From contig JAPPCR010000006.1 of the NCBI GenBank assembly GCA_028875725.1, positions 1,743,786 through 1,807,785 on the forward strand: a DNA stretch of 64,000 nt. Direction: 5' to 3'. The DNA comes from Acidobacteriota bacterium (GTDB lineage Bacteria; Acidobacteriota; Thermoanaerobaculia; Multivoradales; Multivoraceae). Every line of letters begins with the position of its first letter. Position 1 is the first letter of the stretch. This document shows, one piece after another, positions 39,512-54,610 of this stretch. The notes beneath the pieces are model-generated. The model saw only the letters and a list, made by a program, of their open reading frames with translations, searched no databases and was not told the origin of the DNA. A program made the translations under genes and the position numbers.

Positions 39512-41992
39512 GTGCAGACCGCCGCCTGGATCGCAGGGGGCTTCATCGTCGCCCTGCTGACCGTGTCGAACGCCCCCGCCCTCGCCGTCCCGCCTCCCGG
39601 CGCCGGAGAACGTCCGCCGGAAGTCCAGGCCCGGCTGGAGGCGGCGCTGGCGGAAATGCCAGCCGACTACGAGCCCCGCACCGAGCACGTCGACGCCGAT
39701 GGCCAGCCGCACTACCTGAACCGGCTGATCCTGGAGACATCGCCCTATCTCCGCCAGCACGCACACAACCCGGTCGACTGGTTCCCCTGGAGCGAGGAGG
39801 CGTTCGAGCGGGCGCGGGCGGAGGGCAAGCCGGTCTTCCTCTCGATCGGCTACTCCACCTGCCACTGGTGCCACGTGATGGAGCGCGAGAGCTTCGACAA
39901 CGTCGAAGTGGCGCGGCTGATGAACGAGCTGTTCGTCTGCATCAAGGTCGACCGGGAGCAGCGGCCCGACATCGACGACATCTACATGACCGCGGTCCAG
40001 GTGACCCAGCAGCGGGGCGGCTGGCCGATGTCGAGCTTCCTGCTGCCCGATCGCCGGCCTTTCTTCGGCGCCACTTACTTTCCGCCCCAGCAGTTCGTCA
40101 ACCTGATGCGCCAGGTCGACACGGCCTGGCGCGAGCGGCGTGCGGACCTCGAAGCCAGCGCCGCCCAGATCACGGACCTCGTTCGGCAGATCACGGCGGC
40201 CCGCGGCGCGGCGAAGAACCTGGGCCGCGCGGTGATCCGCCAGGCGGTCCAGGGTCTCGTCGCCAGCACGGACCGGCTCCACGGCGGCTTCGGCGGCGCG
40301 CCGAAGTTCCCTAACGAAACGAACCTGCTATTGCTGCTGGAGGAGGCGCTCCGCACCGGCGACAGGGCGCCGATGGACGCCGCGCTGATCACGCTCCGCG
40401 CGATGGCCCGCGGCGGCATCCACGACCAGGTCGGGGGCGGCTTCCACCGCTATTCGGTGGACGGGCACTGGCTCGTGCCCCATTTCGAGAAGATGCTCTA
40501 CAACCAGGCCCACCTGCTCCGCGCCTATGCGCTGGCCTACCGGCTGACCGGCGACCCGCTGCTGGCCCGGGTGGCCCGCCAGACCGCCGATTACGTCCTG
40601 CGCGACATGACCTCGCCCGAGGGCGCCTTCTACTCCGCCACGGACGCGGACAGCGAGGCCGCAGACGGCGAATCGGTCGAGGGCGAGTTCTTCGTCTGGA
40701 CGAAGGACCAGCTTCGCGAGGCGCTGTCACCCGACGACGCCGAACTGACGATCCGGCTCTTCGGCGTCACGGATACGGGGAATTTCGAGCACCGGAACAT
40801 TCTCTTCCTCGACCGGCCGCTCGACGAGAACGCCGCCGATCTGGGCGTGCCGCTCGGGGATCTCCTGGCCAGCCTCGACGCCGTTCGCGAGCGCCTCTAC
40901 CCGATCCGAGAGGAACGGCCGCACCCCCTGCGCGATGACAAGATCCTGACCTCCTGGAACGGGATGATGATCCGCGCCCTCGCCGAGGCCGCCGACGCAC
41001 TGGCCGAACCGGCCTACGCCGAGGTCGCCGCGCGGGCGGCGGACTTCCTGTGGCGACACAATCGCCGCGACGACGGCGGCCTGTGGCGCGTCTGGCTGGA
41101 CGGCGAAGCGTCGACCCCCGGCCTGGTCCAGGACTACGCCCACCTGGCTCACGCCTTCGTCGCTCTGCACGATGTGACGTCCGACGGCAAGTGGCTCGAA
41201 CGATCCGCGACGGTCGCGGCGGAAATGGTCGAGCGCTTCTGGGATCACAGTCCGGCTCCGGCAGAGGAAGGCGCCCCCGCTCCACCGAGCCTCGGCAGCG
41301 GCTTCTTCATCGCCGAGCGCGAGAAGGCCAACCTGCTGATCGCCCAGCCGAAGAGCCCGACCGACGGCGCCGTCCCCTCCGGCAACTCCGTGGCCGTCCG
41401 CGCGCTCGCCGAACTCGGGCGCCGCACCGGCGACCGGAACGCCACCGACCGCGCTCTCGCCACCGTCGCCGCGTTCGCCGCCAACATCGAACGGATGCCC
41501 GCCGCCTACACCTACATGCTGACCGGCCTCGCCGTGGCGCTCGAAGGCGACGCCGGTGCCCGAGCCACCGCCGGCAACGGCGCCGTGGTTGCCGCCGCCA
41601 CCCTGAGTCCCGCCAGCGACACCGGCGAGTACGAAGTCAACCTCGACCTCGTGATCAGGGAAGGATGGCACCTCAACGGCCCCAAACCCCTCCAGGAAGA
41701 CCTGATCGGAACCACGGTCGAAGGTGCCGGCAGCCGCTTCGAGGTCACCAAACTCCGCTACCCGGAACCCCGGCGGACTCAGGTCAGCACCCAGTCCGGC
41801 GATGTTCTGATCTACGAAGGCACGCAGCGCATCACCTTCGCGCTCCGCCCTTCAAGCTCCGCCCCGGAACAACTCCCGGCGTCAGTTCCGATCTCGATGC
41901 GTCTCCAGGCTTGCGACGACCGCCTTTGCCTGCTTCCCGAGATGGTCGTACTGGAACTGCCGGTGCGCCGGCCGGTTCAATCTACGGAGTAG
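39512..41992 (+). CDS. DUF255/YyaL-type thioredoxin-domain protein with C-terminal DsbD-like domain, exported
   Basis: About 826 residues. GTG 39512 gives a signal peptide ([24 protein letters not shown]). The thioredoxin-like domain has [15 protein letters not shown] and the redox pair TCHWCH near residue 116. Then follows the (alpha/alpha)6-barrel of the SSP411/YyaL family ([51 protein letters not shown]). The C-terminal 110 residues ([34 protein letters not shown]) resemble the DsbD/TlpA-family alpha domain with two Cys. The C-terminal fusion makes a role in periplasmic disulfide exchange plausible. Substrate unknown. Confidence 0.9.
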
Positions 41993-48545: not shown

Positions 48546-51062
48546 ATGCAGAACGAAGACACCACTACCGGAGCCCTGGCCGGGATCCATGTCGTCGACC
48601 TCGCCGGTACGGTCGCCACCGCCTACTGCGGCAAGCTCTTCCGCGACCTCGGCGCGACGGTGACGAACCTGGAGCCGCCGGGCGAAGGCCACCCGATTCG
48701 CCGCCTGCATCCGATCCATCCGCAGACGTCGGCGCCCGAAGCCAGTGCGCTCGCGACCTGGCTCTCGCTCGGCAAGCGAAGTGTCGCGGCCGGACCGGAG
48801 GACCCCGACGCCCGCGACCTGCTCACCGGCGCGGATCTCATCCTCGACGACGACCCCGCCGTCGAAAGGCAACTGCTCGACGGCCAGACCCGGATCTCGA
48901 TCTCCTGGTTCGGCGCCTCGGGTCCCTACGCCAGACGCCCCGCCACGGACCCCGTCATCAGCACCCACACTGGCGCTGCCAGGGCGATCGGACCGGCCGA
49001 GGGGCCACCCATCCTGGCCACCGGGCACACGCCGCAAGTGGTCGCCGGGACGCTGGCCTACGTCGGCGCCGTCGGCCACCTGCTGGCGCGGGAGACGGGG
49101 CGGCTCGACGCCCCGTTGCACCTGGACGTCTCGATCTACGAGGCGGCCATGTGCATCACCGAGCCCGGCCCGTCGGGAACCCTCGCGACGGGGGAAATCC
49201 GGCCCCGGATCGGCATCAACCGCTTCTGGCCCACGTATCCGGTCGGCATCTATCCCTGCCGTGACGGCTGGCTCGGTGTGAGCACGGTGACGCCCTCCCA
49301 GTGGCGGAGCCTGTGCGCGCTCCTGGGGCTTGACGAACTCGGGACAGAGCCCCGCTACCAGGTGTCAATCAACCGCCTCGAAGACGCCGACGCGATCGAC
49401 GCCGCGATCGGGCCACGGCTGCTGGAACGGACCGCCCACGAGTGGGTGGAGGCAGGCCAGGCAGCGCGCGTCCCCCTGGCGCTCGCGCCGACACCGGCGG
49501 AGCTGTTCGACCTCGAGCAGTTCCGGGATCGCGGCGCCTGGGTCAAAGCCGAACACCCCGACCAGGGCAGCTTCGTCGCGCCCGGCGCTCCGTACCGCCT
49601 GCACCGCACGCCCGCCACGCCAGGGGGCTCGGCTCCGCGCCTGGGAGAGCACGGCAGAAGGCGGGCCTGGGGGGAGGCGCCCAGCGACCTCGGAGCGAGC
49701 GACTGCCGATGCCGTGCGAAAACCGACGCCCAACCAGAGCGAGCGGAGCGGAGCGAACGCCCTGCCCTCCATCCACCGAGGAGGCGTGAGCGTTCGCTGG
49801 GCGCCTCCCCCCAGGCCCGCCGTCCCACGCTCCTTGGCGACATTCGCATCGTCGATCTGACGATGGGCTGGGCCGGCCCACTCGCCACCCGCCAGCTCGC
49901 CGACCTGGGCGCCGAGGTGATCAAGGTGGAGTCCTGCCAGTACTTCGACTGGTGGCGCGGCTGGGAATCGACGCTCGAGTCGATCGCCCAGAAGCTCTAC
50001 GAGCAGTCGACCGCCTTCAACACGACCGGCCGCAACAAGCTGGGGATCACCCTCGACCTGACCAGCCGGCGCGGCGTCGATCTCCTGCTGCGCCTCGTCG
50101 CGAAGTCGGACGCGGTGATCGAGAACTACACCGCCAGTGTCCTGCCCAAACTGGGCCTCGACTACGAGAGGCTTCGCCAGGTGAACCCCGAGCTGGTCAT
50201 GGTCTCCATGCCGCCCTTCGGCAGGAGCGGCCCATGGATGAACCACCGCGCCTACGGTTCGACCGTCGAGCAGGCGTCCGGACTGCCCCATCTGAACGGC
50301 CGCGCCGGCGACCCGCCGACCATGCAGCACGTCGCCCTCGGCGACCCGATCGCCGGTATCAACGCCGCCGCGGCGCTCCTGACCGCCCTGCGCCACCGGC
50401 GGCGAACAGGCGAGGGCCAGTACGTCGACCTCTCCCACGTCCAGTCCATGTTCCCGCTCGCCGCCCACGGCCTGATCGAGCAGGCGGTCCGCGGCGCCCC
50501 ACCCGAACGCTCAGGCGGCCGCCACCCGCTGTTCGCGCCGTGGGGCGTCTACCCGTGCATCGGCGCGGAGCCCTGGATCACGATTACGGTCGAGACCGGG
50601 AGCCAGTGGCGGGAGCTCTGCGACGTTCTGGGCATGGACGCCGAGGACCCGCGTTTCGCAGATGCCACGAACCGCAAGCAGCACGAGGACGAACTCGACG
50701 CGGCTCTGGCTACCCGCACCAAGCTCCACGACGGTCTGGCCCTGGAACGGCGCCTCACCTCCGCGGGCGTGCCAGCGGCCGTGCTGCGCAACACGCTCGA
50801 CGTGCTCTACGACCCGCATCTCGAGACCCGCGGCTACTGGCAGTGGCGTGAGCGGGCGTACGTCGGCAATCAGCCCAACCCCTCCGCGCCGTTCCGTCCG
50901 GCGGCCCAGGATGGCGCGAGCCGGCCCTATGCCGTCGAATGGCCGGCGCCGACGCTCGGCCAGCACAACCGCGAGGTGCTGACGCGCCTGCTCGACCTGA
51001 GCGAGGATGAGCTCGACGCGTTGGACACCGATCGGGTCATTGGAACCGAGCCGGTCGTATGA
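48546..51062 (+). CDS. Double-domain class III (CaiB/BaiF) CoA-transferase
   Basis: 838 residues made of two CaiB/BaiF domains. Domain 1 (about 1-370) starts GIHVVDLAGTVATAYCGKLFRDLGATV. Domain 2 (about 428-838) starts IRIVDLTMGWAGPLATRQLADLGAEVIKVE and has the usual Asp region near YVDLSHVQSMFPL. Such tandem proteins occur in several bacteria. The linker, about residues 372-425, is a low-complexity Arg/Ala/Pro stretch encoded by a palindrome-bounded 162-base insert (49660-49821). Domain 1 lacks a clear catalytic Asp motif, so one half may be inactive. The CoA donor and acceptor are unknown. Confidence 0.88.
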   Translation: MQNEDTTTGALAGIHVVDLAGTVATAYCGKLFRDLGATVTNLEPPGEGHPIRRLHPIHPQTSAPEASALATWLSLGKRSVAAGPEDPDARDLLTGADLILDDDPAVERQLLDGQTRISISWFGASGPYARRPATDPVISTHTGAARAIGPAEGPPILATGHTPQVVAGTLAYVGAVGHLLARETGRLDAPLHLDVSIYEAAMCITEPGPSGTLATGEIRPRIGINRFWPTYPVGIYPCRDGWLGVSTVTPSQWRSLCALLGLDELGTEPRYQVSINRLEDADAIDAAIGPRLLERTAHEWVEAGQAARVPLALAPTPAELFDLEQFRDRGAWVKAEHPDQGSFVAPGAPYRLHRTPATPGGSAPRLGEHGRRRAWGEAPSDLGASDCRCRAKTDAQPERAERSERPALHPPRRRERSLGASPQARRPTLLGDIRIVDLTMGWAGPLATRQLADLGAEVIKVESCQYFDWWRGWESTLESIAQKLYEQSTAFNTTGRNKLGITLDLTSRRGVDLLLRLVAKSDAVIENYTASVLPKLGLDYERLRQVNPELVMVSMPPFGRSGPWMNHRAYGSTVEQASGLPHLNGRAGDPPTMQHVALGDPIAGINAAAALLTALRHRRRTGEGQYVDLSHVQSMFPLAAHGLIEQAVRGAPPERSGGRHPLFAPWGVYPCIGAEPWITITVETGSQWRELCDVLGMDAEDPRFADATNRKQHEDELDAALATRTKLHDGLALERRLTSAGVPAAVLRNTLDVLYDPHLETRGYWQWRERAYVGNQPNPSAPFRPAAQDGASRPYAVEWPAPTLGQHNREVLTRLLDLSEDELDALDTDRVIGTEPVV
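49660..49821. repeat. Palindrome-bounded insert inside a coding sequence
   Basis: A perfect 28-base inverted repeat bounds 162 bases: arms 49660-49687 and 49794-49821, beginning GGCGGGCCTGGGGGG in the first arm and ending CCCCCCAGGCCCGCC in the second. The length is 54 codons, so the reading frame of the CoA-transferase is kept. The inserted peptide is basic and has no counterpart in CaiB proteins. This resembles Rickettsia-type palindromic elements that insert into open frames. Confidence 0.8.
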
Positions 51063-51074
51063 TCCCGACCACTC

Positions 51075-52811
51075 ATGTTGGCCACACTGGCGCTTTCCGT
51101 CACCCTCGCCGTAGCGCCCGGAAACCTCGAAGACGCCGCGCCGGCATTCGTGGAGGCCGGCGCCGACCTGGGGATCGACTTCGTCCACTTCAACGGCATG
51201 ACCGGGCAGCTCTACACCGCCGAAGTGGTGGGCGCCGGGGTCGCCCTGTTCGACTACGACAACGACGGCGATCTCGACGTCTACCTCGGCCAGGGACGCT
51301 TCTTCGACGGTGACGAGAACCGGAAGCCCGTCTTCCCGCCGCCGGCGGTCGAGCCGACCGACCGCTTGTTCCGGAACGGTCTCGCCGAGACCGGAGAACT
51401 CCGCTTCACCGATGTCACGGCCGAGGTTGGACTCCACGAGCCGGGCTACAACATCGGAGTCGCCACGGCCGACTACGACCGGGACGGCTGGATCGATCTC
51501 TACCTGACGAACCTGGGCTCGAACCGGCTCCTCCGTAACCTCGGGGGCCGCGGCTTCGAGGACGCCACGGCGACCGCCGGAGTTGACGACCGGCGGTTCA
51601 GCGTGCCGGCCGTCTTCTTCGACTACGACGCGGACGGCTGGGTCGACCTCTACGTCGGCAACTATCACCGCTTCCACCGCGCCAACCGAAAGCGCTGTTT
51701 CCTGACCAGCGGGCAGCCCGACTACTGCGGGCCACTGAGCCAGCCGGCCGAAGCCGACCGGCTCCTGCGCAACCTCGGCGACGGGACCTTCGTCGACGCC
51801 ACCGTCAGCTCCGGCCTGGGCGCCGACTCGGTCAAACCCGGCACTGCGCTGGGCGCGGTCGCCGACGACTTCAACGGCGACGGGCTCGTCGACCTCTATG
51901 TCGCCAACGACCAGATGGCCAACCACCTGTGGCTGAACCAGGGCGACGGCACGTTCATCGAGGACGCGGTGTTCGCGGGCGCCGCCTTCGACCGGGACGG
52001 GCGGCCGCAGGCCAGCATGGGCGTCGCGGTCGGCGACTTCGACGGCGACGGCTCACCCGACATCTTCCTCTCCCACCTGGTTCGCGAGCACAACACGCTC
52101 TACCTGAACGACGGCGACGGGCTCTTCGACGACCGCAGCCGCGAGGCCGGCCTGATCGACGCGAGCTGGCCGATGACCGGCTTCGGCGCCGCCAGCCTCG
52201 ACGCCGACGGCGACGGCGTGCTCGACCTTTTCGTCGTGAACGGAGCGGTGCGGCGGATCGAAGCCCAGGTCGAAGCCGGCGACCCGCACCCGCTGCGGAT
52301 GGAGAACCAGCTCTTCCGCGGCCTCGGCGGCGGCCGCTTCGAGGCCGTGTCGGCTGAACGCCGGGAGCGGCCGGTCCACCTCGAGGTCAGCCGCGGCCTG
52401 GCGGTCGGTGACCTGGACAACGACGGGGACCCGGATCTCGTCATCTCCAACAACGCAGGACCGGCCCACGTGCTCCTGAACCAGCGCCGCCCGGGACGCG
52501 ACTGGATCGGCCTGAGACTCGTCGAGGCCGCCGGCGACGACGGGCAGGGGATCGTCGACGTCTACGGCGCCCGCGCCCGCCTCGCCGCCGGAGGCGGCTG
52601 GCGGAGAGTCCACACCGACGGCAGCTACGCCGCGGCCCGCGATCCGCGGCTGCTGTTTCCGCTGCCCGGCGACAGCGATTCGGCCGAGGAAGGCGCCGTC
52701 CGCGCCATCGAAGTCCGCTGGCCAGACGGAACCACGAAGACAATCACGCTGGAGACTGGCCGCTACCACATCGTGCGGAGGGGCGCGGAAGACCGAGGGG
52801 CACCGCCTTGA
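51075..52811 (+). CDS. Secreted FG-GAP/CRTAC1-type propeller protein, copy A
   Basis: 578 residues with a short signal peptide. Repeated calcium-loop FG-GAP/VCBS blades are plain: LFDYDNDGDLDVYLGQG, ADYDRDGWIDLYLTNLG, FDYDADGWVDLYVGNY, DDFNGDGLVDLYVAND, GDFDGDGSPDIFLSH, GDLDNDGDPDLVISNN. The C-terminus is an ASPIC/UnbV domain (RRVHTDGSYAAARDPRLLFPL). CRTAC1-like proteins are extracellular; in Acidobacteriota they often lie near TonB receptors. A TATGAT hexamer lies 11 bases before the ATG. It overlaps the TPR gene by TTGA. Confidence 0.9.
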   Translation: MLATLALSVTLAVAPGNLEDAAPAFVEAGADLGIDFVHFNGMTGQLYTAEVVGAGVALFDYDNDGDLDVYLGQGRFFDGDENRKPVFPPPAVEPTDRLFRNGLAETGELRFTDVTAEVGLHEPGYNIGVATADYDRDGWIDLYLTNLGSNRLLRNLGGRGFEDATATAGVDDRRFSVPAVFFDYDADGWVDLYVGNYHRFHRANRKRCFLTSGQPDYCGPLSQPAEADRLLRNLGDGTFVDATVSSGLGADSVKPGTALGAVADDFNGDGLVDLYVANDQMANHLWLNQGDGTFIEDAVFAGAAFDRDGRPQASMGVAVGDFDGDGSPDIFLSHLVREHNTLYLNDGDGLFDDRSREAGLIDASWPMTGFGAASLDADGDGVLDLFVVNGAVRRIEAQVEAGDPHPLRMENQLFRGLGGGRFEAVSAERRERPVHLEVSRGLAVGDLDNDGDPDLVISNNAGPAHVLLNQRRPGRDWIGLRLVEAAGDDGQGIVDVYGARARLAAGGGWRRVHTDGSYAAARDPRLLFPLPGDSDSAEEGAVRAIEVRWPDGTTKTITLETGRYHIVRRGAEDRGAPP

Positions 52812-54610
52812 TCCGGCGCCGCTTCCTCTGGGTGCGCGGGTCTTCTGACCCGCTGCCGCCGCAGGCGGCCAGAAGAACGCCGGCCGCAGGCCGACCGCTT
52901 CCAACGAGCGTACTCGTCCTCAGCTTCTCGCTCGCCGCCGTGGCGGCCGCGCAGGCCGCCGCCCAGGAGCCGCCGACCACCGACGACGCTCGCCGGGTAC
53001 GCGCCCTGCTCTCGCTCGACGCCGTGCCGGAACCGACCCTCGACCACCTCGACGCCGAGACCCGGCAACAGATCGCCGCCGACCGCCTCGCCGCAACGGA
53101 GGCCCTCGCTGCCGCCGCCACCGACGAGGAGGCGCAACACGCCGCGAACGTCTTCGGCGACCTCTGCCTCCAGTACCTCCACCACGAACTCCACGGTGCC
53201 GCCGCCGTGTGCCTGGCCCAACTCCGCCTGCTGGCGCCGAACGACTTCCAGTGGACCTACTATGAGTTGCTGCTCCACGACGCCACCGGCAACCTGGAGC
53301 GCGCCCGGCTCGCGGCACGCGCCGCCCTCGCACTGCGCCCCGACGACACGGCGACCCTGATCCGCAGCGGCGACCTTCACCTCGACGCCGGCGATCTCGA
53401 TGGGGCCGCAGCCGCCTATGCGCGGGCGCTGGAGGCTCGCCCCGAAAGCGCCGCGGCGCGGTTCGGACTCGGCCGGGTGGCGATGGACCGGGGCGAGATC
53501 GGGGAGGCGATCGTCGCATTCGAGGAGGTGCTGGCCTCGCAACCGGAAGGAAGCGTCGTCCACCACCACCTCGGAATGGCCCTGCGGACCGGCGGCGACA
53601 GCACCAGGGCGCGCGCCGAGCTGGCGCGCAACCTGCAGGTCCCGATCGCGATCGTCGATCCCCTCCGTGACCGGCTCCGGATCTACGGAGTGAAGACCGA
53701 GGCCCGGTTCGACCGCGCGGTGCGGGCCGCCCGTTCCGGCCAGAACGACGAGGCGATCGCCCTGTACCGGGAGCTCCTGGCCGAAGACGGCGGCGACCCG
53801 GAGGTCCACTTCAACCTCGCCCGCTCCCTGATCGAGACCGGCGACCAGGCGGGCGCCGAGGAGCATCTCCGGCGCGCGATCGAAGCAAACCCCGCGCACG
53901 GAGCGGCTCACTTCAACCTCGCCCTCCTGCTCGGCCGCACCGGGCGCACCGCCGAAGGCGCGCTGCACCTGGAGCGGGCCGCCGACATCGACCCGGAGAA
54001 CCTGCAGTGGCGGATGATGCGGGCCCAGGCCCGTGCCGACGCCGGCAACGCCTCCGGCGCCCGCTCCGAGCTCGAGGAGATCGTCCGGCTCGACCCTGGC
54101 GCGATCGAGGCGCACCGGCTGCTGGCGGCCATGCTGCTCGAGGCGGGCGAAGCGGCCCGGGCCGCCGACCACCTGGAGGCCCTGGCCGCACTGACCCCGG
54201 ACGACCTGCGGGTCCACTTCAACCTCGGTCTGACCCGGTTCGGGACCGGACAGTTCGCCGCCGCCCGGGAGGCGCTGGAGACCGCGCTCGAGCGCTTCCC
54301 CGGCGACCTCGCGGTGCGACACCTGCTCGCCCGCCTTCTCGCCACCAGCCCCGACGCCGCCGTGCGCGACGGCGAGCGGGCCGTGGAACTCGCCCGCTCC
54401 GTCGTCGACGAGCAACCGGCCCTGGACCACCTGGAGACGCTGGCGATGGCGCTGGCCGAGGCCGGCCGTTTCGAGGACGCCGTCTCCTGGCAGCAGCGAG
54501 CCCTGGACCGCGAACGGGAGACCGCCGGCGGCAACTCGCCGCAGCGCCTCGATCGTCTCCGCCTCTACCAGGCAAGCCAACCGCTCCGCGCTCCCGGAGG
54601 CGGTCCCTAG
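52808..54610 (+). CDS. Secreted TPR protein between two CRTAC1-type proteins
   Basis: About 600 residues from a TTG at 52808 overlapping the previous stop as TTGA. The basic N-terminus is unusual: about 30 residues encoded by a hairpin-rich segment (52836-52885) precede the hydrophobic signal LVLSFSLAAVAAAQ. At least eight TPR units follow, such as PEVHFNLARSLIETGDQAGAEEHLRRAIEANP and AHFNLALLLGRTGRTAEGALHLERAADIDP by type, and the C-terminus has LETLAMALAEAGRFEDAVSWQQRAL. A role as a periplasmic binding scaffold for its neighbours is likely but not shown. Confidence 0.85.
   Translation: MIRRRFLWVRGSSDPLPPQAARRTPAAGRPLPTSVLVLSFSLAAVAAAQAAAQEPPTTDDARRVRALLSLDAVPEPTLDHLDAETRQQIAADRLAATEALAAAATDEEAQHAANVFGDLCLQYLHHELHGAAAVCLAQLRLLAPNDFQWTYYELLLHDATGNLERARLAARAALALRPDDTATLIRSGDLHLDAGDLDGAAAAYARALEARPESAAARFGLGRVAMDRGEIGEAIVAFEEVLASQPEGSVVHHHLGMALRTGGDSTRARAELARNLQVPIAIVDPLRDRLRIYGVKTEARFDRAVRAARSGQNDEAIALYRELLAEDGGDPEVHFNLARSLIETGDQAGAEEHLRRAIEANPAHGAAHFNLALLLGRTGRTAEGALHLERAADIDPENLQWRMMRAQARADAGNASGARSELEEIVRLDPGAIEAHRLLAAMLLEAGEAARAADHLEALAALTPDDLRVHFNLGLTRFGTGQFAAAREALETALERFPGDLAVRHLLARLLATSPDAAVRDGERAVELARSVVDEQPALDHLETLAMALAEAGRFEDAVSWQQRALDRERETAGGNSPQRLDRLRLYQASQPLRAPGGGP
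52836..52885. repeat. Hairpin-rich segment at the 5' end of the TPR gene
   Basis: Stems GCGGGTC/GACCCGC (52836-52842, 52847-52853) and GCCGCC/GGCGGC (52855-52860, 52864-52869) follow each other, and a TCTTCTG/CAGAAGA pair (52841-52847, 52870-52876) offers an alternative. The segment codes for residues that do not fit a signal peptide. Confidence 0.55.

Follow-up and report, generated by a model that had tools for sequence, protein, structure and literature searches.

E1, a palindromic repeat family at gene 3' ends in one genus of Acidobacteriota, with a copy lying in frame in a CoA-transferase gene

A long palindrome, lying in frame in a CoA-transferase gene within the 64,000-nucleotide stretch of DNA analysed here (the window), belongs to a repeat family, termed E1, whose other members in the same genome sit between genes, mostly at the 3' ends of genes. 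E1 is, in our judgement, probably a non-autonomous, REP/MITE-like palindrome of ~190 nt, which would have spread as a hairpin mobilised in trans, is kept behind stop codons and would act on transcript ends. The family is apparently undescribed so far, as no description of it was found in the open-access library searched, a scope outside which most subscription papers fall. With E1, the palindromic repeats of bacteria gain a well-supported family from a phylum that has few known ones.

The first-pass annotation had reported a perfect 28-base inverted repeat at this place, and all 28 of 28 pairs were recovered (Table 1); allowing one mismatch, the arms extend to 31 nt (49657-49687 and 49794-49824; 97% complementarity), with 106 nt between them. 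This pair stands alone, since no second inverted repeat of at least 24 nt (arms within 250 nt) occurs in the 64 kb window, and the folded strand of the palindrome exceeds its dinucleotide shuffles in stability by 6.6 s.d. Chance was ruled out as its origin by this uniqueness and by the further copies in the genome. The score given in Table 1 is that of a sequence which is itself among the 16 in the alignment of model R1, so that independent support comes from blastn within its own genome, where E1 copies are 70-82% identical to the window copy. Helix P2, whose window coordinates were assigned by hand, encloses a loop that differs from copy to copy.

Table 1. Features of the window discussed in the text
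Feature	Position	Strand	Basis or remark
E1 window copy, positions 1-190 of model	49649..49834	+	cmsearch, model R1, 136.5 bits
Terminal stem P1, 5' arm	49660..49687	+	perfect 28-nt complement of 49794-49821
Terminal stem P1, 3' arm	49794..49821	+	perfect complement of 5' arm
Helix P2, with tandem G-A motifs, and its loop; 49695-49703 pairs with about 49736-49744	49695..49744	+	consensus structure, covariation on 16 and 57 copies
Helix P3 and variable loop; 49753-49760 with 49784-49791; GC-GA-ACGC / GCGT-GA-GC	49753..49791	+	consensus structure, covariation
Host gene, two-domain CoA-transferase family III, 838 aa	48546..51062	+	ORF open through E1; Pfam; orthologues
Intergenic site without E1	41955..41983	.	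four relatives with intact E1; others with an internal deletion or the feet alone

The host reading frame runs through the palindrome, in agreement with the earlier claim that the protein stays open on both sides. CoA_transf_3 is matched twice in the protein by Pfam, the second stretch covering residues 430-808, and the insert therefore sits between domains. The accompanying claim, that exactly 54 codons had been inserted, holds loosely: the segment does measure 162 nt, but its ends fall off codon boundaries and orthologues lacking it are not shorter by exactly 162 nt, the motif-to-motif linker being 255 nt long in the window versus 174-228 nt in orthologues without E1. The predicted structure of the enzyme is of low confidence (mean pLDDT 38), and no conclusion rests on it.

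Orthologous linkers, whose comparison for presence or absence of the palindrome had been proposed, gave a mixed picture. In four of them the same E1 is present and has a second palindrome (E2) inserted in it near P3; four others retain just the 3' part of E1, plus E2; the remaining ones are devoid of E1, several of them having a REP-type repeat (encoding an RMPARGPAHRQ-like peptide) or E2 alone. All are in frame throughout except L055, a contig-start fragment with a stop in the translation across the join. E2 (ACCCATGTGGCGCG..CGCGCCACATGCGTCGCAGGCCGTGCGTCCG) is a shorter, double-hairpin repeat of ~70 nt that lies inside some E1 copies, in some relatives on the 3' side of P3; it was seen at L038:7032-7356 and in the own-genome copies L088, L090 and L093, and the L051 and L055 linkers have E2-like repeats by themselves. 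One linker has in this way gathered three palindromic repeat families in frame across sister species, which makes it a natural case for the study of repeats becoming protein.

In the four orthologues with a full-length E1, third codon positions inside E1 share 93-98% identity with the window copy, versus 57-81% in the rest of the gene. Over the 56 nt upstream, identity is 96% for L044, L045 and L048 and 71-80% for L038, L040, L043, L052 and L054, out of step with overall gene similarity; across 49600-49834, which comprises the linker and these 56 nt, the distant relatives L044, L045 and L048 are far closer to the window than they are in the rest of the gene. Such high identity may reflect constraint on the nucleic acid, exchange between species, or chimeric assembly of the metagenome-assembled genomes (MAGs).

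The first-pass annotation had also proposed a BLASTN search for further copies, and this was rewarded: besides the query and its self-complement, the 201-nt region matched 19 places in its own genome, and a covariance model for which 16 copies had been aligned recovered at least 57 full-length copies there (103-181 bits), 185-197 nt long except for three of ~260 nt. All 21 genus genomes searched contain E1, with 9 to at least 63 matches each. In a phylum sample of 396 genomes (E <= 1e-8), 14 genus members and one doubtful match of 62.6 bits were retrieved, and nothing else; the search that covered the genus genomes had weak matches in two further genomes of the order. Candidate distant copies in G029, G032 and G040, which belong to other families of the order (L124-L126; 44-66 bits), are treated as probable chance long palindromes because the palindrome of L124 continues into its flanks. 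Neither plasmids and phages, queried with one E1 copy, nor viral contigs, queried with one narrow exact pattern, gave a match, and with these limited queries a phage or plasmid element was set aside. Across the space searched (Acidobacteriota, plasmids, phages and viral contigs), E1 is restricted to one genus of Acidobacteriota (Thermoanaerobaculia / Ca. Multivorans MAGs), with doubtful weak matches elsewhere. The named relatives are Acidobacteriota MAGs titled Holophagales, Thermoanaerobaculia or Ca. Multivorans, and from these titles and general knowledge we take the genus to be sponge-associated.

Genes were positioned with a purpose-built, simple codon-score gene caller. In the own genome, 56 of the 57 copies lie between genes or touch a gene end, and in 48 of these 56 the 3' end of E1 faces an opposite-strand stop codon at -3 to 73 nt. 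Over 157 distinct copies of the genus, (i) between tandem genes, the fixed orientation is taken by 62 copies and the other by 11 (P = 9e-10), (ii) in convergent pairs the E1 3' end is the nearer to its stop in 52 versus 5 (P = 6e-11), these two P values overstating independence since orthologous copies are included, (iii) 14 copies lie in divergent pairs, and (iv) the median distance from the E1 3' end to the stop codon of the opposite-strand neighbour is 17 nt. The own genome alone gave 23 versus 1 in tandem pairs (P = 3e-6). TAG is the stop codon in 34 of 48 genes adjoining E1 versus 12 of 38 well-scoring window genes (P = 0.0004). Two of the 157 copies were flagged as intragenic, namely the window copy and one whose orthologue is intergenic, the latter probably a mis-called ORF.

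Divergently oriented E1 pairs were also observed (L069:3895-4561, L072:3952-4580, L061:3950-5819, L164:2182-3691, L165:2353-3938), some 1.2-1.5 kb apart with a gene enclosed, larC-like in L061. A composite E1-gene-E1 transposon was considered for L061 and rejected, the enclosed protein reading, by eye, as LarC and not as a transposase.

Every E1 copy forms a long stem with almost perfect pairing. The foot of E1, TCCAGCC...GGCGGGTG (TCC-A-GCC ... GGC-GGG), is conserved, including one bulged A. The proximal stem ends in CCCAGCGG/CCGCTGGG and leads to a three-way junction with P2 and P3, marked by tandem G-A motifs. The distal stem is hypervariable, yet it is complementary nearly always. In 57 copies, 97.8% of the cells assigned to pairs are paired, versus 40-47% in slid controls, both partners have changed in 35 of 43 pairs, and covariation scores 0.503 versus 0.05-0.08 in controls; the alignment was fitted to the model structure and is biased towards it, although slid controls and raw arms agree. 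Over 155 copies, the 4948 cells of P1 include 4800 Watson-Crick, 47 G-U (~1%) and 38 A-C (0.8%) combinations. Since G-U and A-C are balanced, this stem gives no evidence for RNA as the selected form; its near-pure Watson-Crick pairing would fit maintenance at the DNA level, whether by selection for a DNA hairpin or by correction of the palindrome through template switching, no less well than a role in RNA. An initial G-U to A-C ratio of 39:6, taken as a strand preference, came mostly from one systematically mismatched column, and P1 was balanced once the columns were fixed. The strict orientation to the adjacent stop codon and the arms that covary as Watson-Crick pairs with almost no G-U are the unusual, testable properties of the family.

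The own-genome copies have a median pairwise identity of 0.685 and, to judge from this divergence, are mostly old, and many E1 copies of the genus are shared by several species at orthologous places. The own genome also has a young subfamily with 80-92% identity among its members (L016, L019, L024, L057, L082). At two conserved loci, to which the stem-conservation test is confined, the arms are 86-100% identical and third codon positions in the gene next to E1 71-98%; in most comparisons the arms are more conserved than these positions and the loops less. The presence of E1 varies within the genus at orthologous places. In the intergenic region at tatC, a gene identified by eye, G000 and G007 have E1, G011 a truncated E1, and other close relatives REP pairs or short remnants in its place. 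At the second locus compared across the genus, window 41955-41983, relatives show intact, stem-only and scar forms of E1. Neither tatC nor this site yielded a clean empty site bearing a target duplication, other repeats and deletions having overwritten the sites; given this and the clear deletions, insertion at any single locus can at most be presumed.

In the proposed spread, a transposase would have acted in trans on E1 as a hairpin. The candidate mobiliser is a resident RAYT-like Y1 protein, though E1 does not flank the Y1 gene: no E1 was found near the Y1 genes of seven genomes, and the flanks in the four genomes examined hold other, smaller inverted repeat pairs. E1 was accordingly rejected as the repeat of this RAYT, its gene being flanked by other palindromes, and four E1-rich genomes of the genus gave no Y1 match. 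In the own genome the Y1 gene lies at L133:3560-4530 (C5, about 242.6-243.5 kb), encodes an MPNHVHVLL motif and has inverted pairs of the REP CTGGGTGCGCGGGTC..GACCCGC on either side, thus forming a REPtron, which is present once per genome in most of the genus. The window holds one REP of this type, at 52826-52853 on the minus strand, 15 nt behind the gene at 51075-52811. E1 would be retained behind stop codons, and there the hairpin, within the 3' UTR of the upstream gene, would block or trim the transcript end. The window copy would be a rare insertion that survived because it kept the frame and landed in the variable linker joining two domains of the enzyme.

The fixed orientation of E1 to stop codons is also what a strand-specific 3'-end device would show, be it a terminator, a stabiliser of transcript ends or a barrier to convergent transcription, inherited vertically and with any mobility ancient and over. 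Stems that mostly evolve more slowly than synonymous sites at the two loci, copies shared at orthologous places and the age of most own-genome copies agree with it, but the young subfamily and the turnover at tatC among close species suggest later movement. A plain terminator, moreover, would not need an orientation, as the E1 arms look alike in both, and no T-tract was seen. We consider this vertical scheme unlikely. Slightly less so, but still doubtful, is a bolder variant in which E1 would be a DNA hairpin domesticated as an orientation-specific device for the 3' ends of genes and would form a separate class, set in one orientation after dozens of genes, with its arms kept complementary at the DNA level and with inter-domain protein linkers that capture palindromes and exchange them between species. 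A structured non-coding RNA on the model strand, antisense to the adjacent gene, has in its favour the three-way junction, the tandem G-A motifs and the covariation; the excess of G-U over A-C at the apex (21 versus 6 on the model strand, 155 copies) hints at the same strand. Set against this are a P1 stem almost purely Watson-Crick, unusual in an RNA stem that changes freely, the absence of a conserved upstream sequence as possible promoter, an opposite strand that folds more stably than the model strand, and an apex in which neither strand is more stable than its shuffles. Rfam gave no match above the gathering score, by which a known RNA family was rejected too, and an E1-encoded RNA seems to us distinctly improbable.

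Least credible, and to our mind very improbable, is the reading favoured by the first-pass annotation, a family whose niche, like that of the Rickettsia palindromic elements, is insertion in frame into proteins. The window copy is in frame, common to four orthologues and in part to four more, and in other species this linker has two further palindromic repeats that keep the frame. Intragenic copies number only 1 of 57 in the own genome, however, and neither length nor frame shows a coding bias: lengths fall evenly into the three classes modulo 3, and the ~80% of copies with some open frame on either strand are expected at about 72% G+C. What stands of the proposed new protein-inserting family is thus that E1 is repeated, apparently undescribed and in frame in one copy; the other 56 are intergenic, and with no coding adaptation E1 does not behave as the Rickettsia elements do. 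We infer that the in-frame state in the window is best read as the survival of one tolerable outcome, a single insertion tolerated in a variable CoA-transferase linker.

Among known systems, the Rickettsia palindromic elements (105-146 bp, in frame in 19 reading frames; PMC2229807) share with E1 a long palindrome in frame inside a protein gene, but E1 differs in length and in its nearly exclusive intergenic place, a distinction drawn from descriptions of the Rickettsia elements. The REPs and BIMEs associated with RAYTs (GTAG, CGTC) are palindromic, multicopy and placed behind genes, in tandem or convergent, sometimes inside genes; REPs are 20-40 bp long with stems of 5-13 bp, and GTAG REPs often supply TAG stops (PMC3733652). 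E1 resembles them as a multicopy palindrome at gene 3' ends with TAG stops enriched next to it, but is much longer, with stems of ~30 bp and an internal junction; the CGTC tag is present at the 5' foot of only part of the copies, and whereas a GTAG REP flanks its RAYT gene, that place is taken in this genus by the separate small REP pairs. E1 also shares general features of MITEs, being non-coding, within 70-300 bp, with inverted repeats, multicopy and dispersed. In general type it belongs with REPs and MITEs, and the closest in behaviour, size and place is YPAL (RU-2) of Yersinia, a palindromic intergenic repeat of about 168 bp with target duplications of 3-26 bp, empty and filled sites between relatives, a suggested effect on upstream-gene transcripts and occasional in-frame fusion (PMC2229807). 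The two differ in host group, in the target duplications, none of which was recognised for E1, and in the conserved three-way-junction apex and fixed stop-codon orientation of E1, unreported for YPAL in PMC2229807; they are alike in size, palindromic form, intergenic place, presence or absence between relatives, suggested effect on transcripts and occasional fusion in frame.
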